From: Rhodospirillales bacterium
GTDB taxonomy: Bacteria > Pseudomonadota > Alphaproteobacteria > Kiloniellales > JAKSDN01
DNA length: 38,594 nt
Direction: 5' to 3'
NCBI GenBank assembly: GCA_029859805.1
Contig: JAOUCL010000012.1
Coordinates: 1-38,594, forward strand
Below, one piece after another: positions 17,869 through 37,634 of this stretch; the stretch's first letter is position 1; each line of letters opens with the position of its first letter. Position numbers and translations under genes: made by a program. Under the pieces are notes generated by a model, which made no database searches, was not told where the DNA came from, and worked only from the letters and a program-made list of their open reading frames with translations.

Positions 17869-18509
17869 CCTTTCTGGAGCTGACCGAGGGGCCCCTGTGG
17901 TACGCGGCCTCGGCGATCTTCGTCGTCGGCGTGCTGTGGCGGCTCGCCGGCATCGTGAGGCTCGGCGGCCCGCGCGACCTCAGCGTGCCGCGCGCCTCGG
18001 CCACCGCCGGGGCGATCAAGGGCATCTTCCTGCACATGGTCCCGCACGGCGGGTTCTTCAGCCGCACGAAGTTTCATTTCTTCGCGGGCTATCTGTTCCA
18101 TCTCGGCCTGTTCGTCCTGGTCCTCTTCGCGGCGCCGCACGTCCTCTTCATCGAGGAGCGCCTGCTCGGCTTCGGCTGGCCGGCGCTGCCGCGCTGGGGC
18201 TTCATCCTGGTCGCCGAGGCGACCTTCGCCGGGTTGATCCTGTTGTGGCTGCGCCGGCTGACCGACCCGGTGATGCGTCAGCTGTCCGACGGCGACGACC
18301 TGGCCGGCACGGTACTGACCTTCGTCGCGCTCCTGACCGGCTGCCTGGCGCTGCAGGAATCGCACGACAGCCTGCGCGCGCTGCACATGCTGTCGGTCGA
18401 GGTGCTCATGGTCTATTTCCCCTTCAGCCGGCTGATGCACGCCTTCACCTTCGCGTTCAGCCGCGCCTACACGGGCGCCAGCTACGGCCGCCGAGGAGTC
18501 GTCCCATGA
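17865..18509 (+). CDS. DsrM/NarI-like membrane cytochrome b subunit
   Basis: A 214-residue protein with about five membrane helices, related to the nitrate reductase gamma/DsrM group of diheme cytochromes b. Candidate heme-ligand histidines lie in FLHMVPHGGFF, KFHFFAGYLFHLGLFV and LRALHMLSVEVL, ending with FPFSRLMHAFTFAFSRAY, which is typical of DsrM/HdrE-like subunits. In sulfate reducers and sulfur oxidisers DsrM pairs with DsrK to exchange electrons between quinone and a cytoplasmic thiol or disulfide. Here it sits exactly between the FdnI-like gene and the DsrK-like gene with four-base overlaps on both sides, implying a stable three-subunit complex. Confidence 0.82.
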   Translation: MTFLELTEGPLWYAASAIFVVGVLWRLAGIVRLGGPRDLSVPRASATAGAIKGIFLHMVPHGGFFSRTKFHFFAGYLFHLGLFVLVLFAAPHVLFIEERLLGFGWPALPRWGFILVAEATFAGLILLWLRRLTDPVMRQLSDGDDLAGTVLTFVALLTGCLALQESHDSLRALHMLSVEVLMVYFPFSRLMHAFTFAFSRAYTGASYGRRGVVP

Positions 18510-19771
18510 CCGCAGAAACGCCCGCCGCGACCGCGATCGACCGCTTCGTCACGCAGATCGGCGCGCAGGTCGCAGCCTACCTCGACGCCTGCGTCCACTG
18601 CGGGCAATGCGCCGAGGCCTGCCATTTCTACGAGGTCAGCGGCGACCCGCGCCACACGCCGGCCTACAAGCTGGTGCCGCTCGCCCGGGCCTACCGGCGC
18701 CACAAGGCGCCCTTCGCGCGGCTCAAGCGGACGCTGGGATTGGCCCCCGCGGAGCTCGAGGAAGCCGATCTGCGCGAGTGGCAGGACCTGATCTACGATA
18801 CCTGCACCATGTGCGGGCGCTGCACCATGGTCTGCCCCATGGGCATCGACATCGCCTCCCTCGTGGGCTTGCAGCGCCGGGGTTTCGCCGCCGCCGGCAT
18901 CGGCCCGGAGGACCTCTTCGAGGTGGCCGAGAACTCGCGCATCAAGGGCAGCCCCCTGGGGGCCACGCCCAAGGTCCTGGCCGAGCGCATCGAATGGCTG
19001 TCCGACGAGCACGAGGTCGAGATTCCGCTGGACAAGGCGCAGGCGGATGTCCTGCTCACCGTGTCGTCGATCGAAACGATGAAGTATCCGCAGTCGATCG
19101 TCGCCATGGCCCGGCTGCTGAATCATGCCGGCGAGAACTGGACCCTGTCGTCGAAGGGCTACGAAGCCACCAACTTCGGCGTGCTTTCGGGCAAGTCGGA
19201 CGTTGCAAAGCTGATGCTGACCAAGATCGTGGAGGCGGCCGAGTCCGTCGGCGCGAAGCTCGTCGTCATTCCCGAATGCGGCCACGCCTACGGTGCGCTG
19301 CGCTGGACCGGGGCCACCATGATGGGCCGGCCCCTGCCGTTCCAGGTGATGCACATTACCGAGTACCTCGCCAAGCTCAAGCGCGAGGGCCGGCTCAAGC
19401 TGAAGCCGATGGCCAAATCCGTCACCTATCACGACCCCTGTCAGATCTCGCGGCGCGGCGGCGCCACAGAGGAGGCGCGCTTTCTGCTGTCGGACTTCGC
19501 CCAGGACTTTCGCGAAATGGCGCCGACCGGCAACGCCAACTGGTGTTGCGGCGGCGGCGGCGGGGTGGCGGCGATCGCCAGTGCCACCGAGCTGCGCCGC
19601 AAGGTCTTCGAGATCAAGATGCAGCAGGTCGCCGACACCGGGGCCGAGTCCATGGTCTCGGCCTGCGCCAACTGCCGCCAGACCCTCGACGACGGCAAGG
19701 CTCACTACGAGTGGGACCGCGAGATCGACAGCCTCGTGGAGATCATCGCCGACCACCTGGTCGAGGCCTGA
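18506..19771 (+). CDS. DsrK/HdrD-like iron-sulfur protein
   Basis: A 421-residue soluble subunit with two 4Fe-4S motifs, CVHCGQCAEAC (about residues 31-41) and CTMCGRCTMVCP (about 97-108). A cysteine-rich CCG region follows: YHDPCQIS, then WCCGGGGG about 35 residues on, then ACANCRQTL. An earlier ECGHAYGA resembles the first half-site. This is the heterodisulfide-reductase HdrD/DsrK layout, in which the CCG site holds a noncubane cluster that reduces or oxidises disulfides or persulfides. Glycolate oxidase GlcF has a similar layout but no cytochrome partners. Encoded last in the FNR-box operon, it is the likely catalytic subunit; its sulfur substrate is unknown. Confidence 0.85.
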   Translation: MTAETPAATAIDRFVTQIGAQVAAYLDACVHCGQCAEACHFYEVSGDPRHTPAYKLVPLARAYRRHKAPFARLKRTLGLAPAELEEADLREWQDLIYDTCTMCGRCTMVCPMGIDIASLVGLQRRGFAAAGIGPEDLFEVAENSRIKGSPLGATPKVLAERIEWLSDEHEVEIPLDKAQADVLLTVSSIETMKYPQSIVAMARLLNHAGENWTLSSKGYEATNFGVLSGKSDVAKLMLTKIVEAAESVGAKLVVIPECGHAYGALRWTGATMMGRPLPFQVMHITEYLAKLKREGRLKLKPMAKSVTYHDPCQISRRGGATEEARFLLSDFAQDFREMAPTGNANWCCGGGGGVAAIASATELRRKVFEIKMQQVADTGAESMVSACANCRQTLDDGKAHYEWDREIDSLVEIIADHLVEA

Positions 19772-22816: not shown

Positions 22817-23890
22817 ATGAAGATCGACCTGTTTATGGAGTTTCCCTCGCCGCCGGACGCGGAGCTGACCTTGTCCGGGGTGATCGAGGACGGTCTCGGG
22901 CTGGTGCGCGCGGCGGATGCCCTGGGGTTCGACGCGGTCTGGCTGGCCGAGCACCACTTCCTGGGCGACTACTGCAACGCCGCGGCCCCGGACATGCTGT
23001 TGGCGGCCATGGCGCGGGAGACCAAACGGATCGGGCTCGGCTTCGGGATCGTCCCTCTGCCGATCCATGATCCGGTGCGTGTCGCCGAGCGGCTGGCGAC
23101 CCTCGACATCCTGTCCGACGGCCGCGTGCACTGGGGCGTCGGCCGCGGCGTCACCGTCACCGAACTCGAGGGATTCGGCGTCGATCCGGCGGACAGCCGG
23201 GACGTCTTCCGCCGGCGCTTCACCGAACTCGGCGATATCCTGCGAACGGGCCAATTCACGCGCGACGGCGAGCGCTACGAGCTTCGCCCGCCGCCCGGCC
23301 CGCGCCTGGGCACCGGCTGGCTGGCGGCGGTCAGTCCCGAGAGCTTCGAGCTGGCCGCCGAGTTGGGGCTGAACGCCATGACCGGGCCGTTCAAGCCCTG
23401 GCCCTTCGTCAAGGAGGACCTGAAGCGCTACCGCCGCCTGGCCGCGCGGTCGCCGGCGCCCTCCGGCGGCGCCACGTCCTTCACGCTGGCGGTCTATTGC
23501 GCAGAGGACCACGAGGCGGCGCGGGCCCGTGCCGAGCCGGGACTCCTGTGGATCTACCGCAAGATCCTCGAGGTCTCCCGCCCGCTGCTGGCCGCGCGGA
23601 CGGCCGGCTACGAGCACTACCGCAAGCTGGGCCGTCTGGCCTCGCTGTTCGACGATGTTCTGACCCTTCGTGTCCTCGAGGCGATGGGCCTGGCCGCCGT
23701 GGGAAATCCGGAGCACGTGGCCAAACGGCTCGCGTCGCTGCAGGCGAGCGGTCTCGACCGGGTGAACCTGATGATCGGCGGCGGCGACCTGAGCGCCGGC
23801 GAGTCCGTCGACTGCCTGCAGCTCCTGGCCGAACGGGTGCTGCCGGCCGTCGAAAGCGGTGCGGATGCGGCCGAGGCCGCCCCGGCATGA
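22817..23890 (+). CDS. Luciferase-like (LLM class) flavin-dependent monooxygenase
   Basis: This 357-residue barrel protein is of the bacterial luciferase/alkanal monooxygenase superfamily. It has GFDAVWLAEHHFLGDY (about residues 38-53, with the family's His-His pair), IGLGFGIVPLPIHDPVRVAERLATLDILSDGR and GVGRGVTVTELEGFGV, all conserved in LLM oxidoreductases using FMN or F420. The substrate is unknown; LLM members oxidise aldehydes, sulfonates, sulfones and other organics. It is the first gene of the lipoate-assembly operon, overlapping the deacylase gene by ATGA, so a link to lipoate or organosulfur chemistry is plausible but unproven. The ribosome site is weak, and GGACGTCC just before the start could form a small hairpin. 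Confidence 0.87.
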   Translation: MKIDLFMEFPSPPDAELTLSGVIEDGLGLVRAADALGFDAVWLAEHHFLGDYCNAAAPDMLLAAMARETKRIGLGFGIVPLPIHDPVRVAERLATLDILSDGRVHWGVGRGVTVTELEGFGVDPADSRDVFRRRFTELGDILRTGQFTRDGERYELRPPPGPRLGTGWLAAVSPESFELAAELGLNAMTGPFKPWPFVKEDLKRYRRLAARSPAPSGGATSFTLAVYCAEDHEAARARAEPGLLWIYRKILEVSRPLLAARTAGYEHYRKLGRLASLFDDVLTLRVLEAMGLAAVGNPEHVAKRLASLQASGLDRVNLMIGGGDLSAGESVDCLQLLAERVLPAVESGADAAEAAPA

Positions 23891-25053
23891 GCCCGGCCCC
23901 GAGCCAGCTCGGCGCGCTCGCCGCGCCCGCGCAAAAGCCCGCCTCCGCGAGTCCGCGGCCGGTCTTCGTCGCTAGCGAGGTCTACCGGCGCGCCGCCTAT
24001 GGCAGCAACCATCCCCTGGCGATACCCCGCGTGGCCACGGTCATGGAGCTGTGCGACATCCTGGGCTGGCTCGATGACGGCGCCTTCCACGACAGTCCGC
24101 AGGCCACGGCCGCGCAGCTCGCGGCCTTCCACGACCCGGACTACATCGCCGCGCTGCGCGGGGCCGACGAAGCGGGCCGGGCGGACCGGGGGGTCCGCGA
24201 GCGCTACGGCTTGGGCACCATGGAGAACCCGGTCTTTGCCGGCATGTACGAGCGGGCGGCCACATCGGTCGGCGGCTCGATCCTGGCCGCCGAGCTCGCC
24301 CTGGAAGGCCGCGTCGCCTACCACCCGGCCGGCGGTACCCACCACGGGCGGCCGGACCGGGCGAGCGGCTTCTGCTATTTCAACGATCCCGTCTTTGCGA
24401 TCCGAACGCTGTTGAACGGCGGCCTCGCGCGCGTCTACTACGTCGACCTGGACGCCCATTTCGGCGACGGCGTCCAGGACGCCTTCGCCGAGGATGGCCG
24501 CGTCCTCACCCTGTCGATCCACGAGGCCGGGCGCTGGCCCTACGCCGGACCCCTGGAGGACCGGGCGGGCGGCGCGGCGCGCAACCTGCCGGTCCCGCGG
24601 GCCTTCAACGACAGCGAACTCGATCATCTGATGGAAAGGGCGGTGCTGCCGCTCGGCCGGCGCTTCGACCCCGAGGCGGTGGTCGTCACCTGCGGCGCCG
24701 ACGGGCTGGCCGGCGACCCGCTGTCGGCGATGGAGCTCAGCAACCTCGCCCTTTGGCGGGCGGTCGAGGACTTGACCGGACTGTCGCCGCGCAGCGTGGT
24801 GCTCGGCGGCGGCGGCTACAATCCCTGGACCGTGGCGCGCTGCTGGGCCGGGCTGTGGGGCCGGCTGCGCGGCCAGGCCGTCGATGGCCCCCTGCCGGCC
24901 AGGGCCCGGGACCTGTTGCGCGGCCTGGAGTCCGACCTGATCGACGAAGACGAGATCCCGGACATCTGGCATACGACGCTCGCCGACCGCCCCAATGCCG
25001 GCGTGGTTCGCGGCCAGGTGGCGGCCCTGGCCCCGGCGGTGCTATCCCTATAG
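23887..25053 (+). CDS. Histone deacetylase/AcuC-family zinc deacylase
   Basis: This 388-residue protein has the HDAC fold with all catalytic residues in place. His152-His153 lie in GGTHHGRPDRASGFCYFND, zinc ligands Asp189 and His191 in VDLDAHFGDGVQDAF, zinc ligand Asp272 in CGADGLAGDP, and the transition-state Tyr311 in GGGGYNPWTVARCW. Bacterial relatives include AcuC and acetylpolyamine amidohydrolase, which remove acyl groups from lysines or amines. It overlaps the LLM gene and ends 13 bases before lipS1, inside a lipoate-assembly operon. A role in removing or recycling acyl or lipoyl groups from LbpA lysine is an attractive inference, but protein or polyamine deacetylation fits equally well. 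Confidence 0.88.
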   Translation: MSPAPSQLGALAAPAQKPASASPRPVFVASEVYRRAAYGSNHPLAIPRVATVMELCDILGWLDDGAFHDSPQATAAQLAAFHDPDYIAALRGADEAGRADRGVRERYGLGTMENPVFAGMYERAATSVGGSILAAELALEGRVAYHPAGGTHHGRPDRASGFCYFNDPVFAIRTLLNGGLARVYYVDLDAHFGDGVQDAFAEDGRVLTLSIHEAGRWPYAGPLEDRAGGAARNLPVPRAFNDSELDHLMERAVLPLGRRFDPEAVVVTCGADGLAGDPLSAMELSNLALWRAVEDLTGLSPRSVVLGGGGYNPWTVARCWAGLWGRLRGQAVDGPLPARARDLLRGLESDLIDEDEIPDIWHTTLADRPNAGVVRGQVAALAPAVLSL

Positions 25054-25066
25054 ATAGAGGTATGTG

Positions 25067-26104
25067 ATGGGTTGGCTGGAGCGCATTTCGGAGATCGAGG
25101 AACTGGAGGACGCCGAGTTCGACGCCGGCCTGGTGGTCGCGTTCGAGCGCGCCGGGCCGGCCACGGTCGCCCGGCCCATCCGCTTCTCCACCCCGACCTT
25201 CAAGGACTACACGACTTCCGAGCTGCAGGGCTGCGGCAAGAACAGCTTTCCGGCCTTCTCGGTCACCGCGGGCGGCTGCGCGCTGATGTGCGATCACTGC
25301 GAAGCCAAGATCCTCGAGCCCATGATTCCGGCCACCAGCCCGGAGATGCTGGACCGCAAGGTGCGCGACCTGATCCTGCTTCAGGACCTCCAGGGTTTTC
25401 TGCTTTCGGGCGGCTCCAACCGGCTGAACGAGATCCGCTACGAGCGCTTCTATCCGGTGGTCGAGCGGCTGAAGCGCGACTTCCCGCACCTGAAGATCGC
25501 GATACATACCGCGCTGACCGACGAGGCCGGGGCGACACGGATGGCGGACGCCGGCGTCGACACGGCGATGATGGATGTCATCGGCGCCCAGGAGACGGTC
25601 CGCGACGTCTATCACCTGGACCGGCCGGTGGCGGATTTCGAGGCCACCCTGGCCGCGCTCTGCACGACCTCCCTGGAGGTCGTGCCGCACATCGTCGTCG
25701 GCCTGCACTACGGCCGGGTGCTGGGCGAGGCCGAGGCCTTGGACATGGTCGCCCGCCATCCGGTCCATGCCCTGGTCCTGGTCGTGGTCATGCCGTTCTA
25801 CGCTAAGGCCGGAACCTTCCTGACGCCGGAAACCCCGGAGGTCGGCCGCATCTTCCTCGAGGCGCGCCGGCGCATACCGGACCGCCAGGTCCTGCTCGGC
25901 TGCGCCCGTCCGCCGGGCATGCACAAGCGCGTGACGGACAGCTACGCGGTGATGGCAGGCCTGGACGGCATCGCCTTTCCCGCCGATGGCGTGGCCGCCG
26001 TGGCCCGGACCATCGGCCGCCCCGCGCACCAGGAGCACGCCTGCTGTTCGATCAAGGTGGGTGGCGGCCTGTCCGAGGGCGCAAGCCTGGCCTGCGGTGC
26101 ATGA
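25067..26104 (+). CDS. lipS1: Radical SAM lipoyl synthase subunit LipS1
   Basis: This 345-residue radical SAM protein has the cluster motif CALMCDHC (Cys71, Cys75, Cys78; CX3CX2C), an earlier Cys56 in LQGCGKN and a C-terminal HACCSIK pair that could ligate an auxiliary cluster. In sHdr-type sulfur oxidisers LipS1 and LipS2 together replace LipA, inserting the two sulfur atoms into octanoyl groups on LbpA or GcvH. The assignment rests on the radical SAM motif and on the diagnostic order lipS1-lipT-lipS2-slpl(AB). ATG at 25067 follows AGAGG; a GTG one codon earlier is possible. It overlaps lipT by ATGA. Confidence 0.87.
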   Translation: MGWLERISEIEELEDAEFDAGLVVAFERAGPATVARPIRFSTPTFKDYTTSELQGCGKNSFPAFSVTAGGCALMCDHCEAKILEPMIPATSPEMLDRKVRDLILLQDLQGFLLSGGSNRLNEIRYERFYPVVERLKRDFPHLKIAIHTALTDEAGATRMADAGVDTAMMDVIGAQETVRDVYHLDRPVADFEATLAALCTTSLEVVPHIVVGLHYGRVLGEAEALDMVARHPVHALVLVVVMPFYAKAGTFLTPETPEVGRIFLEARRRIPDRQVLLGCARPPGMHKRVTDSYAVMAGLDGIAFPADGVAAVARTIGRPAHQEHACCSIKVGGGLSEGASLACGA

Positions 26105-27174
26105 TGGCCGGCCGCACCCCCGAAGTTCTGGTCGTCGGCCTGGGCCCAGCGGGCAGCCGAGCCGCCGCCGCCGCCGCGGAGGCCGGCCGTTCGGTGGTCG
26201 CCGTGGACCGGCGGCGCGCGGCCGGACATCCCGTGCAGTGCGCGGAATTCGTGCCCGCCATGATCGGCCAGGAGCTTCGAGCGCTCGACTCCGTGATCCG
26301 GCAGCGCATCCGCGCCATGGCGACCTTCGTCGAGGACCGGCCGCCGGACCTCTGGGACAATTTCCCGGGCCATATGATCGACCGCGCCGCCTTCGACCGG
26401 AGCCTTGTCGAGGCCGCGCGACAGGCGGACGCCGACTGCCGGTTCGGCGCGCAGATCGAAGGCTTCGCCCGGGACGGAACGGCGCGGCTCTCCGACGGCG
26501 GCGAGATCCGGCCGCGGCTGATCGTCGGGGCCGACGGACCGAGGTCCGCCGTGGGCCGGGCGGCCGGCCGGGTGAACACCGAGCTGGTCGAGACCCGCCA
26601 GGTCACCGTTCCGCTGAACCAGCCGCACGAGGCCACCAACATCTTTCTCTCGGCGGAGATCACGGGCGGCTACGGCTGGCTGTTCCCGAAGGGCGACGTC
26701 GCCAATCTGGGCGTCGGCGTGGTCCCGTCCGCGAGGACCCGGCTCAAGCCGTTGCTGGAGGACCTGCACCGCCGCTTGGCCGAGGAGGGACGCCTGGGCG
26801 CCGAGGTCCTGGGCCATACCGGCGGCGCGATCCCGGTGGGCGGCCTGCTCGAACCGCGGGGAAGGCTCGGCGAAGTGCCGGTCCTGCTGGCCGGGGACGC
26901 CGCGGGTCTCGCCAACCCGGTGACCGGGGCCGGTATCAACGCCGCGGTGATATCCGGCGGCCTGGCGGGCCGGGCGGCGGCCGACTGGCTCGGCGGGGCG
27001 GCCGGCGCGCTCGACGACTACGCGGAGGAAATCGAGGAGCTGTTCAAGGGCGCCCTCGACCGGGCGGTCGCGCGGCGGCGCGAGATTCTTCGCTGCTACG
27101 AGGACGCACCGGGTCCCGACGCCGCCGCCCTGCGGCGCGGCTGGATCGCCTATCCGGAGTACTGGGCGGCGTAG
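26101..27174 (+). CDS. lipT: LipT-type FAD-dependent oxidoreductase
   Basis: The product (357 residues) is of the geranylgeranyl-reductase-like flavoprotein family. An N-terminal FAD fingerprint, VVGLGPAGSRAAAAAAEAG (residues 10-28), and the second fingerprint GDAAGLANPVTGAGINAA near residue 275 are clear, with GADGPRSAVGRAAG in the middle. In the published sulfur-oxidiser lipoate pathway LipT lies between the two lipoyl synthase genes and is proposed to supply electrons to them. Here it overlaps lipS1 by ATGA and precedes lipS2 by 39 bases, exactly that arrangement. The electron donor (NAD(P)H or ferredoxin) cannot be read from the sequence. Confidence 0.85.
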   Translation: MMAGRTPEVLVVGLGPAGSRAAAAAAEAGRSVVAVDRRRAAGHPVQCAEFVPAMIGQELRALDSVIRQRIRAMATFVEDRPPDLWDNFPGHMIDRAAFDRSLVEAARQADADCRFGAQIEGFARDGTARLSDGGEIRPRLIVGADGPRSAVGRAAGRVNTELVETRQVTVPLNQPHEATNIFLSAEITGGYGWLFPKGDVANLGVGVVPSARTRLKPLLEDLHRRLAEEGRLGAEVLGHTGGAIPVGGLLEPRGRLGEVPVLLAGDAAGLANPVTGAGINAAVISGGLAGRAAADWLGGAAGALDDYAEEIEELFKGALDRAVARRREILRCYEDAPGPDAAALRRGWIAYPEYWAA

Positions 27175-27213
27175 TGCGATGAGAGTTGGAGTATCGATTC
27201 TGGGAGGTCCGCG

Positions 27214-28479
27214 ATGACCTGTTTGAAACCCGAAGGCACGACCCCGGCCGAGGAACGGACCGACGGGTTGGACTTCAACCCCTACGAGGCCATGCGGCCG
27301 CGCGCGCCGGGGGACATCCCACAGAGGGTGCGCAACGGCGCGCGCGTCAAGGCCAACGACGTCGCACCCGAGGGGGTCTACCGGCCCGACTACAACATCC
27401 TGACGCCGCACATGCGCTCGCCCGACTATGTGCAGATGTCCACGGCGGCGGCGATCACCCTCGGCATCACGCGGGGCAGGATGTATCGCTGTTCCTGCAG
27501 CCGCTGCCTCAACCTGCTGCTGACCTATCCGGAGGGCTGCCGGGCCAACTGCGCTTACTGCGGGCTGGCGCGCCACCGCGAGGCGGAGCGCGACTACGCC
27601 GACCGCAACTTCATCCGCGTCGACTGGCCGGCGGTGCCGACCGAGGAGGTGGTCGAGATCGTCGCCCGCGACGGCGAGAACACGCCCTTCCACCGCATGT
27701 GCATCAGCATGATCACGCACCCGAGCTCGGACGCGGACACGGTGATGGTCCTGAAGACGTGGACGGCGCGCATCCCGCCCGAACAGATCCCGGTCTCCAT
27801 CCTGTCCAACCCGACCACGATGACCCGCGGCGACGTACGCACCCTGCGCGATCGGGGCGCCGAGATCTTCACCGTGGCGCTGGACGCCGCGACGCCGGAG
27901 CTCTTCGACCGCACCCGGGGCAAGGGCGTACAGTCGCCGCACAGTTGGAAGAAATACTGGGAGATCCTGCACGACGCGCGCGACATCTTCGGGCCGCAGA
28001 AGTTCGGTGCCCACATCATCGTCGGCATGGGCGAGAGCGAGCACGACGTGCTTTGCCTGGTGCAGACGCTGGTCGACCTGGGCGGCCACAGCCACATGTT
28101 CTGCTTCTTCCCGGAGAAGGGCTCGCTGATGGACCACCTGCCGGCCACGCCGCGCGACCAGTGGCGCCGGGTTCAGCTGGCCCGCTACCTGATCGATTAC
28201 CGCGGCCTGCGCGTGGAGCACATGACCTTCGACGGAGAGGGCCGGGTCGCGAATTTCGGCCTGCCGCAGGGCGAGCTGGACGCCATCGTCGACGGCGGCA
28301 TCCCGTTCCGGACCTCCGGCTGCCCGGGCAAGTTCGCAGACGACATCTCCGCCTGCGACAGGCCCTACGGGGATTCGCCGCCGAGCGACATCGCCAGCTA
28401 TCCCTTCCAGCCCAACAAGACGGACCTCCGCAAGGTCCGCCGGCAGCTCGCCCTGCCGAAGCGCGAGTCGACGCCATGA
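27214..28479 (+). CDS. lipS2: Radical SAM lipoyl synthase subunit LipS2
   Basis: This 421-residue radical SAM protein has its SAM-cluster motif CRANCAYC (Cys109, Cys113, Cys116; CX3CX2C). It is preceded by CSCSRC (Cys93, Cys95, Cys98), a good candidate for auxiliary-cluster ligands like those from which LipA donates sulfur. Further cysteines lie in TSGCPGKFADDISACDRPYG near the C-terminus. It would work with LipS1 to turn octanoyl- into lipoyl-lysine in the cytoplasm. A strong ribosome site, GGGAGG, precedes the start, and its stop overlaps the lipoate ligase start by ATGA. The split of labour between LipS1 and LipS2 cannot be deduced here. Confidence 0.88.
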   Translation: MTCLKPEGTTPAEERTDGLDFNPYEAMRPRAPGDIPQRVRNGARVKANDVAPEGVYRPDYNILTPHMRSPDYVQMSTAAAITLGITRGRMYRCSCSRCLNLLLTYPEGCRANCAYCGLARHREAERDYADRNFIRVDWPAVPTEEVVEIVARDGENTPFHRMCISMITHPSSDADTVMVLKTWTARIPPEQIPVSILSNPTTMTRGDVRTLRDRGAEIFTVALDAATPELFDRTRGKGVQSPHSWKKYWEILHDARDIFGPQKFGAHIIVGMGESEHDVLCLVQTLVDLGGHSHMFCFFPEKGSLMDHLPATPRDQWRRVQLARYLIDYRGLRVEHMTFDGEGRVANFGLPQGELDAIVDGGIPFRTSGCPGKFADDISACDRPYGDSPPSDIASYPFQPNKTDLRKVRRQLALPKRESTP

Positions 28480-29543
28480 GCCGCGGGTTCCGCGTCATAG
28501 ACACTGGGGTCCGCGAGGGCCGGGCCAACATCGCCTTCGACCAGGCGCTGATCGAGGCCCACAAGGCGGGCCAGGTTCCGGACACGATCCGTTTCCTGCG
28601 CTTCCCGCCGACCGCGCTCATCGGCCGGCACCAGGCCTTGAGTCAGGAGCTGAAGCTCGACCACTGCCGGGAAAACGGCATCGGCGTGGTGCGGCGCATC
28701 ACCGGCGGCGGCGCCATCTACTTCGACGAGGGACAACTCGGCTGGGAGCTGGCCTTCGGCCGGAACACGCTCGGCATCTCCAGCCTGGCCGAGCTGACCC
28801 GGGCGATCTGCGAGGCGGCCGCCCTGGGCATCAGCACGCTGGGCGTCGACGCAAAATATCGCCCGCGCAACGACATCGAGGTGGAGGGACGCAAGCTATG
28901 CGGCACCGGCGGGTTCTTCGACGGCGACACCCTGTTCTATCAGGGCACGCTGCTGATCGACATGAACCCGGCCGACATGGTCGCCGCGCTCAGGGTGCCC
29001 GAAGCCAAGCTGGCCAAGCGCGACCTCGATTCCGCCGCTGAGCGGGTGGTCACGCTGCGCCAGCTCCTGGGCGAGGCCCTGCCGGACCTGCCCGCCATCC
29101 AGAAGGCGATGCTCGGCGGCTTCGCCGAGGGGCTCAGCATCGAGCCCCAATGGGGCGAGATCGCCGAGATCGAGGAAACCCTGGCCCAGCGCGCCTACGA
29201 CGAGGAGATCGGCAGCGACGACTTCGTCCACGAGATCGACGATCCCGGGGCGGGCGGAGACGTGCTGAGCGCCTCCCATACCTGCCCGGGCGGCACGGTC
29301 TCCGCCTATCTGCGCCTGGAAGGCCCGGCGCAGGACCGCCTGCGCGAGGTGCTGATCACCGGCGACTTCTTCGTCACGCCGCCGCGCATCGTCTTCGATC
29401 TGGAGGCGAGCCTGCGGGGCGTCCACCAAGCCGAGGCGGGCGCGGCCGTGGAGCGGTTCTTCGCCGAGGCCTCGGTCGATCTCCTGACCATCGCACCGGC
29501 GGATTTCCGCAGTGTGATCGAGGCCGCGCTGGCCGCGCGATAA
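28476..29543 (+). CDS. slpl(AB): sLpl(AB)-type lipoate-protein ligase
   Basis: This 355-residue ligase has a catalytic LplA-like domain (about residues 1-250) and a small C-terminal LplB-like accessory domain (about 260-350). Key motifs are RRITGGGAIYFDEGQLGWEL (residues 73-92; the RRxTGGGA lipoyl-AMP loop) and KYRPRNDIEVEGRKLCGTGG with the likely catalytic Lys140. Fusion of both domains in one chain is the sLpl(AB) type that co-occurs with sHdr systems and charges LbpA with octanoate or lipoate using ATP. It overlaps lipS2 and is followed 26 bases later by the amidotransferase-like gene. Its target is probably LbpA, encoded at 37194. Confidence 0.9.
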   Translation: MSRGFRVIDTGVREGRANIAFDQALIEAHKAGQVPDTIRFLRFPPTALIGRHQALSQELKLDHCRENGIGVVRRITGGGAIYFDEGQLGWELAFGRNTLGISSLAELTRAICEAAALGISTLGVDAKYRPRNDIEVEGRKLCGTGGFFDGDTLFYQGTLLIDMNPADMVAALRVPEAKLAKRDLDSAAERVVTLRQLLGEALPDLPAIQKAMLGGFAEGLSIEPQWGEIAEIEETLAQRAYDEEIGSDDFVHEIDDPGAGGDVLSASHTCPGGTVSAYLRLEGPAQDRLREVLITGDFFVTPPRIVFDLEASLRGVHQAEAGAAVERFFAEASVDLLTIAPADFRSVIEAALAAR

Positions 29544-29569
29544 CGCTTTCCAGAACCGGACGGTTTCGC

Positions 29570-30301
29570 ATGCCTCGCTCCAAAACGCCGGTCTTTGTCC
29601 TACAGCATACCTCGGGCGAGTTTCTCGGCCTGATCGAGGACCACCTCGAGGGCCGGGGCGTCCGCTTCACCTATTTCCGGCCCTTCACTGCGGACGGCAA
29701 GCTGCCGGCCACGGTCGATTTCTGCGCCGGCCTGATCCTGCTGGGCGGCGGGCCCTGGGGCACCAAGGGCGGTCGCGCCGTGCCGACGCTGACCGAGGAG
29801 CTCGAGCTGACCCGCGACTGCCTCGCGCTCGGCAAGCCGGTCGTCGGCATCGGCCTGGGCGCGCAGGTCCTGGCGATCGCCGCCGGCGGCGACAGCGAAC
29901 GGACGGAGTTGGTCTTCGAGATGGGCGAAGCCAGGCGGGTCAAGGAGGACGCCCTCAACGGCTACCTGCCCGCGCGCTATCCGCTTGCGGTCTATATGCG
30001 CGACCGCCCGGTGCCGCCGGACGACGCGGAGATCCTGGCCGTGGACCAGGCCGGCCGGCCGGCCCTGTTCCAGGTGGCCGGCAACTGCCTCGGCTTCACC
30101 GGCCATCCCGGGGCCAAGCTGGGCATGGTCGAGGACCTCATCATGGAGTTCGAGGAGTCGCCCGAGGCGCCCTGGGCAACCATGGAAGCGCTGCGCAAGG
30201 CGCAGCCGGAGATCGAGGACGCGCTGGTCCGGATCATGACCGGCCTCGTGCAGATCACCGGTCTCATGCGGCCCGGGCCCGAACCCCGCGAGCCGGGCTG
30301 A
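29570..30301 (+). CDS. Class I glutamine-amidotransferase-fold protein lacking the catalytic cysteine
   Basis: The 243-residue product follows the GATase1 layout: VFVLQHTSGEFLGLIEDHL, GLILLGGGPWGT, GKPVVGIGLGAQVLA, and GFTGHPGAK near the end. The nucleophile normally sits in GxCxGxQ; here that position is Gly95 (codon GGC), so glutamine hydrolysis by the usual Cys-His-Glu triad is impossible. His179 remains, but the Glu that should follow it in HPE is also missing. The frame is intact and the gene is the last of the lipoate operon, so loss of activity looks old. It may be a binding or scaffold protein for lipoate assembly. I cannot assign its ligand. Confidence 0.8.
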   Translation: MPRSKTPVFVLQHTSGEFLGLIEDHLEGRGVRFTYFRPFTADGKLPATVDFCAGLILLGGGPWGTKGGRAVPTLTEELELTRDCLALGKPVVGIGLGAQVLAIAAGGDSERTELVFEMGEARRVKEDALNGYLPARYPLAVYMRDRPVPPDDAEILAVDQAGRPALFQVAGNCLGFTGHPGAKLGMVEDLIMEFEESPEAPWATMEALRKAQPEIEDALVRIMTGLVQITGLMRPGPEPREPG

Positions 30302-30344: not shown

Positions 30345-30374
30345 TTAACATATTCACGTTTTATATTATATAAT
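30345..30374 (+). promoter_or_regulatory. Promoter of the dsrE3C-shdr-lbpA operon
   Basis: TTAACA at 30345-30350, an 18-base spacer, then TATAAT at 30369-30374. The -10 lies inside the palindrome ATTATATAAT (30365-30374), in a short AT-rich island. The start would be near 30381, about 100 bases before dsrE3C. An ArsR-type repressor site overlapping the -10 is plausible, but no exact SqrR-like motif was found. Confidence 0.55.
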
Positions 30375-30482: not shown

Positions 30483-30860
30483 ATGGCTGAGAAGCTGGTC
30501 ATCATCATGGCGAACACCGATCCACGTAACGGCGAGGAGCTCGGCGCGCCGATCTTCCAGGCCTCCGTGGCGGCGGCCATGGAATACGAGGTCGAGGTGA
30601 TCTGCACCGCCACCTCCGGGCGCCTGATGAAGAAAGGGGTCGCCGAGAACCTCTACGTGAAAGAGGGCTCGCCGAAGTCGGTCTACGACTTCATCAAGGA
30701 TGCCCACGAGGCTGGGGTGAAGTTCTACTGCTGCTCGCCGAACCTCGACCTCTTCGACATGACCCAGGAAGACCTGATTCCCGAGTGCGAGGGGATCGTG
30801 GGCGGCGCCCATCTGGTCGAGGAGGTCATGGAGGGCGACTGCAAGGTCCTGACGTACTGA
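30483..30860 (+). CDS. dsrE3C: DsrE3C-type sulfur carrier protein
   Basis: This 125-residue DsrE-fold protein has IIMANTDPRNGEELGAPIFQ at the start, TATSGRLMKKGVAENL, and the cysteine pair Cys83-Cys84 in FYCCSPNLDLF, then Cys102. In sHdr-containing sulfur oxidisers DsrE3C exchanges persulfide sulfur with TusA, using these cysteines, and feeds the sHdr complex. It is the first gene of the sHdr operon, behind a promoter and a GGAG ribosome site at the 30483 start. Upstream in-frame ATGs precede the ribosome site and lack family similarity. It is distinct from the DsrE2 protein encoded at 22028. Confidence 0.92.
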   Translation: MAEKLVIIMANTDPRNGEELGAPIFQASVAAAMEYEVEVICTATSGRLMKKGVAENLYVKEGSPKSVYDFIKDAHEAGVKFYCCSPNLDLFDMTQEDLIPECEGIVGGAHLVEEVMEGDCKVLTY

Positions 30861-30883: not shown

Positions 30884-31642
30884 ATGGATCACGCCAGCAG
30901 CACCCGCGTCCAGGAGTTCATCGGGGACCCCATCTCCGAGGCCCCCGTGGTCGACCGGGACACCCTCGAGGAGATCTTCGGCGACATACAGGCCGATCTC
31001 CGCTACGACCACGAGCTGAACGGCTGCCTCAACTGCGGCATCTGCACCGCGACCTGCCCGGCGGCGCACTACTACGACTTCAGCCCCCGCGAGATCGTCC
31101 AGCTGCTGTGGACGGAGAACCTCGAGGGCATCTACGACGCCATGCAGGAAAAGATCTGGGCCTGCGCCCAGTGCTACACCTGCGCGGCGCGCTGCCCCTT
31201 CGGGAACTCGCCGGGCGGTCTGGTCATGCTGATGCGCGAGGCGGCCATCAAGCACGGCATGCAGTCGGCCAAGGATGTCCTGCGCCCGTTCAGCCGCGTC
31301 ATGTTGAAACTGATCTCGACCGGCAACCAGCTGTCGCCGGACATGATCAACGCCGACCATTTCGCCGACTGGGGCCCCAATATCTCCAAGGTCGACGCCC
31401 CTCTGAAGCTGCTGCGCAAGGCCATCCCGATGCCGACGCTGAACACCACGGCGACCGCCTGGGAGGTCAACCTCACGACCTCCGTCGAGCTCTACACCAT
31501 CTGGGAGATGACCGGCGTCCTCGACCAGCTGGAGACCATCGACGAGAACCTGTTCGACGTCATCACGGACATCATGGACGAGAAGCGCGAGGACCTGGAC
31601 GACTGGCGCGACGAGCAGGACGAGGACGGCGAGGACGAATAG
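30884..31642 (+). CDS. shdrC1: sHdrC1, heterodisulfide-reductase-like ferredoxin subunit
   Basis: This 252-residue subunit has two complete 4Fe-4S motifs, CLNCGICTATCP (Cys48, 51, 54, 58) and CAQCYTCAARCP (Cys94, 97, 100, 104), giving an electron wire between the FAD subunit sHdrA and the CCG-type catalytic subunits. The rest is helical, ending in a very acidic tail (DDWRDEQDEDGEDE). The order C1-B1-A-H-C2-B2 identifies the sulfur-oxidising sHdr type rather than methanogen HdrABC. The start at 30884 lies 23 bases after dsrE3C; its ribosome site is weak, so translation may be coupled. Confidence 0.92.
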   Translation: MDHASSTRVQEFIGDPISEAPVVDRDTLEEIFGDIQADLRYDHELNGCLNCGICTATCPAAHYYDFSPREIVQLLWTENLEGIYDAMQEKIWACAQCYTCAARCPFGNSPGGLVMLMREAAIKHGMQSAKDVLRPFSRVMLKLISTGNQLSPDMINADHFADWGPNISKVDAPLKLLRKAIPMPTLNTTATAWEVNLTTSVELYTIWEMTGVLDQLETIDENLFDVITDIMDEKREDLDDWRDEQDEDGEDE

Positions 31643-31688
31643 GATCGCGGCGCCGGCCTCGACCGGGCGCCGAAAAAGGGAGAAAGCC

Positions 31689-33068
31689 ATGGCCACCGAC
31701 AAGGGCAAGAACGACGACGGCACGCGCTTCACCGGGCACGGCCCCGAGTGGACCGATTCGAGCCTGAGCCCCGCGCAGGCGCGCACCGCCACGGCCTGGG
31801 TCGAGCAGAAGATCGACAAGCGCTCGATGCTGACCAACAAGGACCGCGTCGAGGACGTGCGCGACATCATGTGGCAGCTCGAGAAGGAGGGCGAGATCGT
31901 CGTCCACCGGGTCGCCGACGAGCACCGGCCGGTCACCGCCAAGACGCTCTACGGCTGGGACAAGAGAATCCCGACGACCCAGCTCTGGCATCACAAGTCC
32001 TGCGGCCAGTGCGGCAACATCCCGGGCTATCCGGCCTCGCTGCTGTGGCTGATGAACAAGATGGACATCGCCTATCTGGACGAGACCGACCAGACCTCCT
32101 GCACCGCCTGGAACTACCACGGCTCGGGCATCGGCAACCTGGAGAGCCTGGCGGCCGTCTTCCTGCGCAACTTCCACCAGGCCTATGTGGCCGCGCGGGC
32201 CCAGGGCCTGCCGGACGGTTACTACTATCCCCTGGTCCACTGCGGCACCTCCTTCGGCAACTACAAGGAGGTCCGGGGCTATCTCCTGCATTCGGCGGAG
32301 CTGCGCGAGCGCGTGAAGGCGATCCTCGGCAAGCTGAACCGGCTGGTCGACGGCAAGCTGCTGATTCCGGAGGAGGTCGTTCACTACTCCGAATGGCTGC
32401 ACGTCATGCGCGGCGACATCCGCAACCACCAGGAAATCGACTGCGGCCAGGTCCGGGCCACGATTCACCCGGCCTGCCACGTCTACAAGATGGTGCCCGA
32501 GGACGCGATCTACGACGACGAGGTCCTCGACGGCAACCGGGTCGCCGTGTCGACCGGCATCATCGAGGCCCTCGGCGCCCAGGTGATCGACTACTCGACC
32601 TGGTACGACTGCTGCGGCTTCGGCTTCCGCCACATCATCTCGGAGCGCGAGTTCACCCGCTCGTTCGCGATCGACCGCAAGATCCGCGTGGCCGTCGAGG
32701 AGGCCCAGGCCGACATGATGATCGGTCACGATACCGGCTGCATCACGACGCTGGACAAGAACCAGTGGATCGGCAAGGCCGCGGGCAAGGACGTCGAGCT
32801 GCCGATTCTGGCCGACTGCCAGTTCGCCGCCCTGGTCTGCGGCGCGCACCCTTACAAGATCGTGCAGTCGCACTGGCACGCCTCGCCGACCGAGACGCTG
32901 ATGGAGAAGCTCGGCATCGACTGGCAGCAGAAGAAGGCCGAGTTCGAGGCCTACCTCAAGGAGGTCGAGGCCGGCAACCAGGAGAACCTCTACGACCCGC
33001 GGCTGATGATCACCTCGGGCCCGGGCTTCAAGAAGGCCGAGGTCAAGAAGATAGGCCAAGCGAAATGA
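31689..33068 (+). CDS. shdrB1: sHdrB1, CCG-domain catalytic subunit
   Basis: This 459-residue subunit is of the HdrB type. Cysteines lie in SCGQCGNIPGYP (Cys105, Cys108), TSCTAWNYHG (Cys138), HPACHVYKM, YDCCGFGFRH and DTGCITTL, forming the CCG-type site that holds noncubane clusters in HdrB relatives, where disulfide or persulfide sulfur is handled. It is longer than methanogen HdrB because of an N-terminal stretch of about 95 residues, as in other sHdrB1 proteins. GGGAGAAAG precedes the start, and its stop overlaps shdrA. It would be one of two catalytic B subunits in the cytoplasmic sHdr complex oxidising protein-bound sulfane sulfur. Confidence 0.92.
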   Translation: MATDKGKNDDGTRFTGHGPEWTDSSLSPAQARTATAWVEQKIDKRSMLTNKDRVEDVRDIMWQLEKEGEIVVHRVADEHRPVTAKTLYGWDKRIPTTQLWHHKSCGQCGNIPGYPASLLWLMNKMDIAYLDETDQTSCTAWNYHGSGIGNLESLAAVFLRNFHQAYVAARAQGLPDGYYYPLVHCGTSFGNYKEVRGYLLHSAELRERVKAILGKLNRLVDGKLLIPEEVVHYSEWLHVMRGDIRNHQEIDCGQVRATIHPACHVYKMVPEDAIYDDEVLDGNRVAVSTGIIEALGAQVIDYSTWYDCCGFGFRHIISEREFTRSFAIDRKIRVAVEEAQADMMIGHDTGCITTLDKNQWIGKAAGKDVELPILADCQFAALVCGAHPYKIVQSHWHASPTETLMEKLGIDWQQKKAEFEAYLKEVEAGNQENLYDPRLMITSGPGFKKAEVKKIGQAK

Positions 33069-34114
33069 ACAAGCCCGTCCTCATCCTGGGCGGGGGCCCG
33101 GCCGGACTGTCCGCCGCGCACGCCCTCGCCAGCATTGGCCAGAAGTCCGTCCTGGTCGAAAAGGAAGACCGGCTCGGCGGCGCCCCGATCCTCTCGGGCT
33201 ACGCCAGGCTGGTGCCGAGCCGCGAATGGGCCAAGGACGCCATCGGCGGCATGGTCGAGAGGGTCGCCGGCAACGGGCTGGTCGACGTCCGCACCTCCAT
33301 GACCGTCAAGGAGTTCTCCGGCGAGCCCGGGCACTTCACGGCCAGGCTGGCCGACGACTCGACGCTCGACATCGGCACCGCCGTGCTCTGCACGGGCTTC
33401 ACCCATTTCGACCCGATCAGCAAGCCGGAATGGGGCTTCGGCACCTTCCCCGACGTGGTCACCACGACCCAGGTCGAGCAGATGTTCTCCTCGGGCCAGG
33501 GCGTGCGCTGCCCCTCGGACGGGCGCAAGCCCAAGCGCGTGGCCATCCTGCTCTGCGTCGGCTCGCGCGACCGGCAGATCGGCCGCGAGTGGTGCTCCAA
33601 GGTCTGCTGTACTGTGTCCTGCAACATCGCGATGGAGATCCGCGAGGAGCTGCCCGACTGCCACGTCTACATCTACTACATGGATATCCGCACCTTCGGG
33701 CTCTACGAAGACCTCTACTATTGGAAGAGCCAGGAGGAGTTCAAGGTCAAGTACATCAAGGCGCGCATCGCGGAGGTCACCTTCGACGGCGAGAAGCTGA
33801 TCGTCAAGGGCGAGGACACCCTGGTCAAGCGGCCGATCACCATCCCCTTCGACCTGGTGGTCCATGCCATCGGCATGGATCCGAACGTCGACAACATGCT
33901 GCTGTCGTCGATCTTCGGCGTCGAGCTGCAGAAGCACGGCCATATCGCCCGCGCCAGCACCTACAGCGCCATGGGCGCGACCTCGCGCCCCGGCGTCTTC
34001 GTCGCGGGGGCGGCGACCGGCCCGGAGACCATCGACGATTCCATCGCCCAGGGCCAGGGCGCCGCGATGGCGGCCCTCGCCGGAGCCCCCGCCATCAAGG
34101 CCGCGGCGGAGTGA
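33065..34114 (+). CDS. shdrA: sHdrA, FAD-containing electron-transfer subunit
   Basis: This 349-residue flavoprotein has the N-terminal FAD fingerprint LILGGGPAGLSAAHALASIG (residues 6-25) and a cysteine block WCSKVCCTVSCN (Cys177, 181, 182, 186) for an iron-sulfur cluster, then HAIGMDPNVDNM and a C-terminal GVFVAGAATGPETIDDSIAQ that closes the FAD site. It is shorter than methanogen HdrA, lacking the extra ferredoxin domains, which is the rule for sHdrA. It is the core of the sHdr complex, joining electrons from the B and C subunits and probably passing them to NAD+ or a membrane acceptor. It overlaps shdrB1 by ATGA. Confidence 0.93.
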   Translation: MNKPVLILGGGPAGLSAAHALASIGQKSVLVEKEDRLGGAPILSGYARLVPSREWAKDAIGGMVERVAGNGLVDVRTSMTVKEFSGEPGHFTARLADDSTLDIGTAVLCTGFTHFDPISKPEWGFGTFPDVVTTTQVEQMFSSGQGVRCPSDGRKPKRVAILLCVGSRDRQIGREWCSKVCCTVSCNIAMEIREELPDCHVYIYYMDIRTFGLYEDLYYWKSQEEFKVKYIKARIAEVTFDGEKLIVKGEDTLVKRPITIPFDLVVHAIGMDPNVDNMLLSSIFGVELQKHGHIARASTYSAMGATSRPGVFVAGAATGPETIDDSIAQGQGAAMAALAGAPAIKAAAE

Positions 34115-34121
34115 CGGGCAC

Positions 34122-34988
34122 ATGTTGATGGCCCGGCGCTCGCCCGCGGACCTACCGGCGCCCGAGACCGCGCGGCCGACGCTCGACTTGAGCGGGCCCG
34201 CGCTCGCGTCCGGCCTGGAGACCCTCGTGGCGAGCAGCAAGGAGGCCGGCGGGATCGAGGTCTATATCGAAGGCATCAAGCTCAAGACCGCGGCCTTCCA
34301 ACGGACCCTGGGCGACGGCAAGGCCGCTGAGCTCGACGAGGACACCTTCAAGGCGCTCTGCGCCTTCGTCGCGCCGGTCCGCCGGCGCATCGGCCCGCGG
34401 CTCGAGGAGTACGGGTTCCCCGCGATCCGCGAAGCGGTGACGGCGCTGCTCGACGGCGCCTCGGACACCGCGACGGCGGATGCCCGGCTGGACGGTTTCT
34501 GCGGCCGGTTTCCGCAGGACAAGCAGCACCGCTGGGTGCGCGACCTGGCGACCGAGCTGCTGCACTACACCGACCCGGAGCGCTATCCGCTGATGTGCCG
34601 CTGGGTCTGGGACGCCCGGGCCAACACCGGCGTCCTGCGCGAGATCTGGCACGGGGACAACGTGGACCACATGGTGATCGACGTGCCGGACGGCTATCAG
34701 ACCTTCCTGGTGCTGCGCGAGGAGCTCAGTCAGTTCCTCACCGAGAACGGCGTGTTCCGGGACGTCACTTTCTACGTCGACTTGCTCTGCGCCCAGGTCT
34801 ATGCCGGGTACATTACCTCCCAGGGCGGTAGCTACCTGCGCGCGGATTTCTCTTCGCCCGAGGATCCGCTGCTCTACACCCGCCGCCTGCTCGGGCTCGA
34901 CGGCATCAATACCCAGACGGGGCGCAGCCGCTTCAAGGCCGTCGACGGCGGCCGCCCCGTGCTGGACGATGTCAAGCTGTTGAACTGA
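34122..34988 (+). CDS. shdrH: sHdrH, conserved protein of the sHdr cluster
   Basis: A 288-residue soluble protein lying between shdrA and shdrC2, the fixed place of the uncharacterised sHdrH (formerly called Hyp) in type I clusters. Recognisable stretches are GIEVYIEGIKLKTAAFQRTL, LLHYTDPERYPLMCRWVWDA, VIDVPDGYQTFLVLREEL and CAQVYAGYITSQGGSYLRAD. Four cysteines are present, but no cluster motif is seen. No enzyme family is apparent, so it may be an assembly or accessory factor. ATG at 34122 has a GGAG ribosome site ten bases before; an in-frame ATG at 34128 is an alternative. Confidence 0.85.
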   Translation: MLMARRSPADLPAPETARPTLDLSGPALASGLETLVASSKEAGGIEVYIEGIKLKTAAFQRTLGDGKAAELDEDTFKALCAFVAPVRRRIGPRLEEYGFPAIREAVTALLDGASDTATADARLDGFCGRFPQDKQHRWVRDLATELLHYTDPERYPLMCRWVWDARANTGVLREIWHGDNVDHMVIDVPDGYQTFLVLREELSQFLTENGVFRDVTFYVDLLCAQVYAGYITSQGGSYLRADFSSPEDPLLYTRRLLGLDGINTQTGRSRFKAVDGGRPVLDDVKLLN

Positions 34989-35004
34989 CCCTGGGGACCC
35001 GCCC

Positions 35005-35784
35005 ATGCCGATTCACGAAAAGTCCCTGATCCGCCCGGAGAATCTCCTCACCCACGAGAACCTGGAGATCGAGGGGGTCGACGTCTCGGGGCATTGGAGC
35101 ACCTTCATCGAGTCCCGGGTGGTGACGGACTACAACGAGGCCCTCGAGGACGAGATCGCGGCCCTGCCGGGCGGCGAGAACATCCACCGCTGCTGGCAGT
35201 GCGGATCCTGCACCAACGCCTGCACGGTGAACGCCTTGAACCCCGATTTCAATCCACGCTTCTGGATCTACCTGGTCCGCACGGGCATGGAGCAGGAGCT
35301 GCTGCGCGACAAGGACATCATCTGGCAGTGCGTGTCCTGCCACAAGTGCACCTATGTCTGTCCGCGCGACGTGGTCCCCGAGGGCGTGATGAAGGCCACC
35401 GCCCACTGGCTCGAGCTCAAGGGTCACCGGCCGAAGTCGCCGTCGATGCTGTTCGACGAGGTCTTCTCCGAGCAGGTCTTCGCCACCGGCAAGATCGAAG
35501 AGGGGCGCACCCTGCGCGGCTTCTTCAAGCGAACCGGGCAGCCGCTCACCCAGGACTGGCTGGTCGAGATGATCAAGCGCCTGCTCAGGCACCTTCCGGT
35601 CAAGCTGATGATCACCCTGGGACTGGCCAATGTCATCCAGCCGCGCACCCGGGGCTGGGCCGGCGCGCGCGCCGCGATCGAGGAATACGTGGAGGAGCAG
35701 GAGGCCAGGCAGCGCCAGGCGCTCGGGCTCGACCGACCACCGGCCACCGGCGCCGAGCGGCCTTTGGCCGAAGCGGCCGAGTAG
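35005..35784 (+). CDS. shdrC2: sHdrC2, heterodisulfide-reductase-like ferredoxin subunit
   Basis: This 259-residue protein has two 4Fe-4S sites. CWQCGSCTNAC (Cys63, 66, 69, 73) lacks the usual proline after the last cysteine, and CVSCHKCTYVCP (Cys109, 112, 115, 119) is standard. A longer C-terminal part includes LKLMITLGLANVIQ-like hydrophobic helices (near residues 193-210) and a charged coil. It pairs with sHdrB2 in the second half of the sHdr complex, mirroring the C1-B1 pair. It starts 16 bases after shdrH and ends 13 bases before shdrB2, and is clearly co-transcribed. Confidence 0.92.
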   Translation: MPIHEKSLIRPENLLTHENLEIEGVDVSGHWSTFIESRVVTDYNEALEDEIAALPGGENIHRCWQCGSCTNACTVNALNPDFNPRFWIYLVRTGMEQELLRDKDIIWQCVSCHKCTYVCPRDVVPEGVMKATAHWLELKGHRPKSPSMLFDEVFSEQVFATGKIEEGRTLRGFFKRTGQPLTQDWLVEMIKRLLRHLPVKLMITLGLANVIQPRTRGWAGARAAIEEYVEEQEARQRQALGLDRPPATGAERPLAEAAE

Positions 35785-35797
35785 GGAAGGACATCCG

Positions 35798-37193: not shown

Positions 37194-37634
37194 ATGCCCG
37201 TTGTACGCGGATGCCACATGCCCGACGAGCTGCTCTACGACGTGGAGAACCACATCTGGTTCAAGGAGGTCGGCGACGGCAACGTACGGATCGGCATGAC
37301 CACCGTCGCCACGGCCATGGCCGGCCGCTTGGTGGCGTTCACGCCGAAGAAGGTCGGGCGCAGCGTGAAGGCGGGCAAGTCCTGCGCCACGGTCGAGTCC
37401 GGCAAGTGGGTCGGCCCGGCGAAGTCCGCCGCGGCCGGCGAAGTCGTCGAGGTCAACGAAGAGCTGACCAAGAACCCCGGTGCCGCCAACGACGATCCCT
37501 ACGATGCCGGCTGGCTGGTCGTCCTCAAGCCCGAGGACTGGGACGGCGTAAAGGCCTCGTTGATCCCAGGCGCCGAGGTCGCGGACAAATACGAGGCCAA
37601 GATGGCGGCCGACGGATTCGACGGCTGCGCCTAA
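37194..37634 (+). CDS. lbpA: LbpA, lipoate-binding protein for sulfur oxidation
   Basis: A 146-residue GcvH-fold protein. The lipoyl lysine is Lys71 in ATVESGKWVGP, and ESGKWVGP is the mark of LbpA proteins that partner sHdr; glycine-cleavage GcvH normally has a different loop and sits with gcvT/gcvP. The N-terminus (CHMPDELLYDVENHIWFKEV) and the NPGAANDDPYDAGWLVVLKP close the fold as usual. LbpA is the obligatory substrate carrier of the sHdr pathway, and its lipoyl arm should be assembled by the sLpl(AB)/LipS1/LipS2 enzymes encoded upstream. GAGGAGAGG precedes the start. Confidence 0.93.
   Translation: MPVVRGCHMPDELLYDVENHIWFKEVGDGNVRIGMTTVATAMAGRLVAFTPKKVGRSVKAGKSCATVESGKWVGPAKSAAAGEVVEVNEELTKNPGAANDDPYDAGWLVVLKPEDWDGVKASLIPGAEVADKYEAKMAADGFDGCA

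Follow-up and report, generated by a model that had tools for sequence, protein, structure and literature searches.

The window analysed here is a stretch of 38,594 nucleotides, positions 1 to 38,594 of contig JAOUCL010000012.1 from a Rhodospirillales bacterium. It carries an operon for the lipoate-assembly proteins LipS1, LipT, LipS2, sLpl(AB) and LipX, in which a gene for a protein with a histone deacetylase (HDAC) fold lies directly upstream of lipS1. This HDAC-fold gene is a regular, previously undescribed partner of the lip genes in sulfur oxidisers. We tentatively propose that its product serves the sLpl(AB)-LipS1/S2 system as a dedicated member and would hydrolyse C8 acyl groups on the lipoate-binding protein LbpA. 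The assignment to the lip system is based on the near-exclusive co-occurrence of the HDAC-fold protein with LipS1/S2, the co-linearity of its gene with lipS1, its intact active site, and its separation from a housekeeping paralog.

A search with LipS2 as bait provided 80 named loci, a set that is biased because it is made of the best LipS2 matches. The 59 loci with at least 1.3 kb of sequence upstream of lipS1 were considered informative. In 43 of them, the HDAC gene immediately precedes lipS1, and in eight more it lies elsewhere in the same locus; the linkage spans alpha-, beta- and gammaproteobacterial records. In five of the eight loci, HDAC and lipS1 lie about 1.16 kb apart, a distance that corresponds to one additional gene. 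The gene inserted between them at L076:6833-7873 encodes a Sulf_transp protein (SoxT/YeeE-like), and four related loci have a gap of equal size. The linkage outlasts rearrangement, since the HDAC gene of L106 is located on the opposite strand behind slpl, and the block HDAC-lipS1-lipT-lipS2-slpl of L169 and L171 is inverted relative to the shdr genes. Seven loci (L071, L080, L094, L096, L098, L102, L107) keep the HDAC gene with the lip genes, with no shdr genes seen in the locus; LbpA is encoded in all seven genomes. An earlier reading of the window from its sequence only had assigned the deacylase, together with a luciferase-like monooxygenase (LLM), to the lipoate-assembly genes. The neighbourhood survey bears this out for the HDAC-fold gene, which recurs in 51 of the 59 loci, whereas the LLM gene is present in just seven.

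Evenly sampled genomes comprise 385 of the same class, ten of them with LipS2, and 398 of the phylum, eight of them with LipS2; the union contains 16 LipS2 genomes. Eleven of the 16 (G000, G129, G243, G296, G336, G413, G496, G671, G749, G777, G787) have the HDAC gene upstream of lipS1, either adjacent to it or one gene away, and five (G061, G254, G289, G415, G448) do not. In the phylum sample, the HDAC is found in seven of the eight LipS2 genomes. Within the class, 6 of the 10 LipS2 genomes contain the lip-type HDAC, as against 0 of the 375 genomes that lack LipS2 (Fisher p 4.8e-11, uncorrected for relatedness). Four of these six genomes also contain a non-lip HDAC paralog.

The HDAC tree includes 81 sequences; its outgroup branch is very long, which leaves the position of the root uncertain. 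Twenty-five non-lip alphaproteobacterial HDACs form one clade (support 100/99), and one of them (L003) is an additional HDAC encoded by the genome that contains the window. The lip-linked HDACs fall outside this housekeeping clade, and the window genome carries both types. The lip and non-lip HDACs are separated by 15 positions, eleven of which, plus tunnel and rim positions, were combined into a signature. It was scored on 71 class matches, 40 of which had not been used to find the positions. The scores are bimodal, with 10-11 of 11 in G000, G129, G243, G296, G336 and G413, and five or fewer elsewhere. The seemingly HDAC-less loci L082, L093 and L104 belong to genomes with a full-signature copy at another place, in two cases beside dsrE2. 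Across 32 loci, the HDAC distances correlate with those of the lip genes at r 0.63-0.73 (LipS1, LipS2 and sLpl 0.70-0.73), and less with those of dsrE3C (r 0.50) and shdrC1 (r 0.48). The tree and signature rule out that the protein is an ordinary housekeeping enzyme.

The HDAC-fold protein contains His152, His153, Asp187, Asp189, His191, Asp272 and Tyr311, which are conserved without exception in the 55 lip-linked relatives, so that the intact catalytic site described from sequence only is confirmed. The Asp-His-Asp ligands D189, H191 and D272, together with H152/H153 and Y311, are those of a classical Zn-dependent deacylase (class I / cluster 2-like). The residue that follows the Zn ligand His191, at position 192 (24460-24462), is His in nearly all relatives; the protein of the window shares a Phe at this site with a single relative. 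The sole Pfam match is PF00850, and no sirtuin domain was detected in the protein. The AlphaFold2 model (pLDDT 93) has the arginase-deacetylase fold of a class-I-type deacylase, and structure comparison retrieves HDLP (1c3r, Z 52, 34% identity) and HDAC2 (Z 49). HDLP of Aquifex aeolicus (PDB 1c3p/1c3r) is the closest solved structure by both sequence and fold, with 34-35% identity. The tunnel residues Gly161, Phe162 and Leu279 are invariant among the lip types (n=55), and Trp217 is present in 53 of 55; Leu279 is variable among housekeeping HDACs. The rim of the tunnel carries the acidic residue Glu113 in 55/55 lip types, which is often replaced by Gly in housekeeping HDACs. Glu113 aligns with Asp101 of HDAC8, a residue that anchors the peptide backbone. 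The foot-pocket motif of the lip-type HDAC is AGGTHH with GGGGY, and Thr151 is found in 53 of 55 sequences.

AcuC of Bacillus subtilis (cluster 2c; PMC11532494) shares with the lip-type HDAC the class-I HDAC fold and the GGxHH and GGGY motifs. The foot pocket of AcuC is GGGLHH/GGGY and that of its cluster XGGLHH/(G/A)GGY (PMC11532494); the lip-type HDAC has Thr before His-His where AcuC has Leu, and thus departs from XGGLHH but conforms to (G/A)GGY. Among the peptides tested, AcuC cleaves octanoyl-lysine best, it accepts Gly-Lys sites, and it reactivates acetyl-CoA synthetase (PMC11532494). The genomic partner of AcuC is acetyl-CoA synthetase (acsA/acu operon), whereas the neighbours of the lip-type HDAC are lip and shdr genes. 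Removal of lipoyl groups from lysine, the reaction proposed for the lip-type HDAC, is catalysed by the lipoamidase CobB/SrtN, which however is an NAD-dependent sirtuin of unrelated fold that acts on PDH, KDH and GCV proteins (PMC5596343). The bacterial lipoamidase that we found described is NAD-dependent. The papers defining these lip operons or H. denitrificans regulation were found to contain no mention of HDAC or LLM. Nothing relevant was found that links HDAC with sHdr, LbpA or lipS1 in open-access texts without figures, so an unseen description is possible.

In three of the lip genomes that lack the lip-type HDAC (G061, G254, G415), slpl(AB) is joined to the coding sequence of an alpha/beta-hydrolase domain, in which GHSDG is the apparent nucleophile motif. 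No such fusion was found in HDAC-bearing loci (Fisher 0.006, from approximate counts and small numbers). LipX was considered as the fusion partner and ruled out, as the fused part is an alpha/beta-hydrolase. Acyl hydrolases seem to accompany the LipS1/S2 pathway repeatedly, and the presence of two such enzymes with unrelated folds suggests that a hydrolytic step is missing from the published lip scheme. Other C-terminal extensions occur in LplA-type ligases at L174:7463-9090, where the extension is Cys-rich, and at L082:6056-7759, where it is assigned to DUF116 by Pfam.

We hypothesize, with some reserve, that the HDAC-fold protein is a Zn-dependent hydrolase that serves in editing or recycling and clears the lysine of the ESGKW motif in LbpA of octanoyl, mercapto-octanoyl or lipoyl groups. 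Hydrolysis of C8 groups is favoured because AcuC accepts octanoyl-lysine and Gly-Lys sites, LbpA carries the ESGKW motif, sLpl(AB) takes free octanoate or lipoate only, and half-finished mercapto-octanoyl-LbpA builds up in the heterologous host E. coli (PMC10332631). Hydrolysis of octanoyl- or lipoyl-lysine is compatible with the fold, the AGGTHH/GGGGY pocket, Leu279 as the gate residue, and the Gly-Lys site at which LbpA is acylated. The HDAC-fold protein would dock on the exposed acceptor loop of LbpA, and the acylated lysine would enter through the tunnel formed by Gly161, Phe162, Trp217 and Leu279. A water molecule activated by Zn (Asp189, His191, Asp272; His152/His153; Tyr311) would then cleave the amide, while the C8 chain would sit in the wide foot pocket. 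The groups taken off may be octanoyl, half-finished mercapto-octanoyl, or damaged lipoyl. The lysine would be freed for a new round, and octanoate or lipoate would be handed back to sLpl(AB).

Several observations weigh against C8 hydrolysis by a dedicated enzyme. The sole cluster-2 enzyme studied accepts many acyl groups and hydrolyses them inefficiently (PMC11532494). Thr151 and Trp217 are also found in housekeeping paralogs, and the foot-pocket argument therefore fails to single out lip substrates. The bulky dithiolane may be ill-suited to a Trp at the tunnel position. The HDAC is absent beside lipS1 in H. denitrificans (PMC10451225) and in Thioalkalivibrio-type loci (G448), and is thus not essential to the pathway; the alpha/beta-hydrolase swap is based on three genomes.

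It is also conceivable, albeit unlikely, that the protein is a plain short-chain (acetyl/propionyl) deacylase similar to AcuC, which maintains the activity of the lip machinery, for instance by deacetylating the acceptor lysine of LbpA or sLpl(AB). AcuC belongs to the same fold and cluster and in vivo deacetylates AcsA (PMC11532494), and the LbpA lysine in its Gly-Lys context would suit such an activity. However, a short-chain deacylase would not explain why the association is exclusively with the lip system and not with other metabolism, and the non-lip paralog of four of the six lip-type class genomes could perform this reaction.

The HDAC-fold protein could instead release octanoate or lipoate from proteins acylated by the LipB route (GcvH, E2 domains) for loading of LbpA by sLpl(AB), which we regard as improbable. 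The lysines of lipoyl domains and GcvH are preceded by Asp or Val at position -1, not Gly, which counts against such precursor supply, and essential lipoyl enzymes would have to be attacked. In its favour, sLpl(AB) requires free acids and is without transferase activity (PMC10332631), and the host genome, a 5.36 Mb draft, encodes LipB. The sLpl-fused hydrolase and the oxygenases LLM and AurF (described below) could serve the same supply.

A Glu gatekeeper at the tunnel is the mark of polyamine deacetylases. The lip types have Leu279 instead of the gatekeeper of APAH and HDAC10-like enzymes in 55/55 sequences, and their rim acid, at the place of HDAC8 Asp101, is invariant, which makes it very unlikely that the protein is an amidohydrolase of acetyl-polyamines or other small amides kept in the operon for regulatory reasons, although small molecules are substrates of some bacterial HDAC-fold enzymes (PMC11532494). 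That the gene is a chance or hitch-hiking neighbour with no part in lipoate metabolism would agree with its absence from several lip operons, but is contradicted by its occurrence pattern and persistence through rearrangements, and we consider it highly implausible.

The LLM encoded by the first gene of the operon shares fold and family with bacterial luciferase and other LLM monooxygenases (PF00296), and its subfamily was seen in lip loci only. Its distribution among these loci is patchy, with orthologs 53-59% identical. No LLM match at E<=1e-50 was found in 384 other class genomes, for which the top candidates per genome were scored. The LLM and HDAC as a conserved pair, as well as an organosulfur role of LLM, are parts of the sequence-only reading that find no support, while its link of the deacylase to the lip genes stands. 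The LLM protein scores 43.6 bits against TIGR03860 (DmoA/NtaA; cut-off 279.7) and 28.2 bits against TIGR03565 (SsuD; cut-off 518.2), and its nearest PDB structures are bacterial luciferase-type enzymes; its closest relatives are bacterial luciferase and secondary-metabolism LLMs, not DmoA or SsuD. An AurF-like di-iron oxygenase (PF11583) with conserved carboxylate and His residues follows LLM in six of the seven LLM loci (L046, L054, L055, L057, L058, L114). The gene order is LLM-AurF-HDAC-lipS1, or LLM-AurF-lipS1 in L054 and L057, whose genomes contain a housekeeping-type HDAC only. LLM is a lineage-specific accessory outside the lip core. Luciferase converts fatty aldehydes to acids, and a role of LLM in octanoate supply is therefore conceivable; our guess is that LLM might contribute to the oxidative supply of free acid.

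LipX is described as a putative glutamine amidotransferase in the literature on these operons and was called an amidotransferase-fold protein from sequence only. A weak GATase match supports the fold, but the motif GIGLGAQ replaces the GxCxGxQ of class I glutamine amidotransferases. Glutaminase activity of LipX is unlikely, because the nucleophilic Cys is missing here and in every aligned relative.

The order and overlaps of the seven + strand genes from LLM to lipX, noted earlier, were recovered by gene calls and Pfam/NCBIfam matches (Table 1). ATGA overlaps join LLM to HDAC, lipS1 to lipT, and lipS2 to slpl(AB); the gap between HDAC and lipS1 is 10-13 bp, depending on the choice of the lipS1 start, and that between lipT and lipS2 is 39 bp. 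Downstream of the lip genes, the operon runs straight into dsrE3C-shdrC1B1A-hyp-C2B2-lbpA, and lipS1, lipT, lipS2, slpl(AB) and lipX beside these genes characterize it as an sHdr-linked lip operon. The order lipS1-lipT-lipS2-slpl(AB)-lipX-dsrE3C-shdr is identical to that in H. denitrificans (Tanabe et al. 2023, PMC10332631; PMC10451225), whose operon begins with lipS1, whereas that of the window has the LLM and HDAC-fold genes added in front. LipS1 (174.5 bits against NF053742, curated cut-off 230) and LipS2 (176.7 bits against NF053743, cut-off 270) score under the cut-offs of their best named families, and their names are supported by synteny alongside the CxxxCxxC motifs and the family ranking. 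The nearest named record by LipS2 is an uncultured Kiloniellales bacterium, 97% identical. Upstream of dsrE3C, positions 30345-30374 strongly resemble a sigma-70-like promoter (match at 11 of 12), which suggests that the shdr genes can be transcribed separately from the lip operon. Positions 16777-19771 encode consecutively a cytochrome b561-type protein, a small membrane protein, and a CCG-type Fe-S protein; a similar trio immediately precedes lipS1 in L100 and L091.

Table 1 Features of the lip-shdr region in the window (positions without locus prefix) and of HDAC-less lip loci.
Feature	Position	Strand	Evidence
LLM-class flavin monooxygenase, lip-specific subfamily (P0001)	22817-23890	+	PF00296 E 5e-56, 190.8 bits, above cut-off
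Predicted lip-type HDAC-fold Zn deacylase (P0002)	23887-25053	+	PF00850 E 9e-68
lipS1, radical SAM lipoyl synthase subunit	25067-26104 (alternative start GTG 25064)	+	Best family NF053742; CxxxCxxC in GCALMCDHC
lipT, FAD oxidoreductase	26101-27174	+	FAD_binding_3 / geranylgeranyl reductase-type matches; order of genes shared with Hyphomicrobium denitrificans (PMC10332631, PMC10451225)
lipS2, radical SAM lipoyl synthase subunit	27214-28479	+	Best family NF053743; CxxxCxxC in GCRANCAYC, invariant
slpl(AB), lipoate/octanoate:LbpA ligase	28476-29543	+	PF21948 (LplA-B_cat) E 9e-43; LplB-like C-terminus
lipX, class-I glutamine-amidotransferase fold without catalytic Cys	29570-30301	+	Weak PF00117 (GATase); GIGLGAQ in relatives
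dsrE3C sulfurtransferase, first of the shdr genes	30483-30860	+	DsrE families; gene call
shdrC1, B1, A, hyp, C2, B2	30884-36724	+	Gene calls; synteny with related loci
lbpA, lipoate-binding protein, acceptor motif ESGKW	37218-37634	+	Motif same in 45/45 LbpAs
sLpl(AB) with C-terminal alpha/beta-hydrolase (GHSDG), HDAC-less lip loci	L038:5968-7866; L039:11631-13493; L040:11406-13307

The sLpl-LipS1/S2 pathway was defined from operons lacking HDAC, yet the gene is present in most of the evenly sampled proteobacterial lip operons (11/16). More speculatively, the pathway may include a Zn-dependent lipoamidase/deoctanoylase of the HDAC family, lipoylation of LbpA may be reversible and edited, and differing acyl hydrolases, either of the HDAC fold or as a ligase-fused alpha/beta-hydrolase, may have been recruited for it. 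With this finding, it becomes possible to test how a ligase restricted to free octanoate or lipoate obtains its substrates and has its errors corrected. If the proposed activity is true, lipoylation would be controlled in a new manner, by a Zn-dependent lipoamidase reserved for LbpA.

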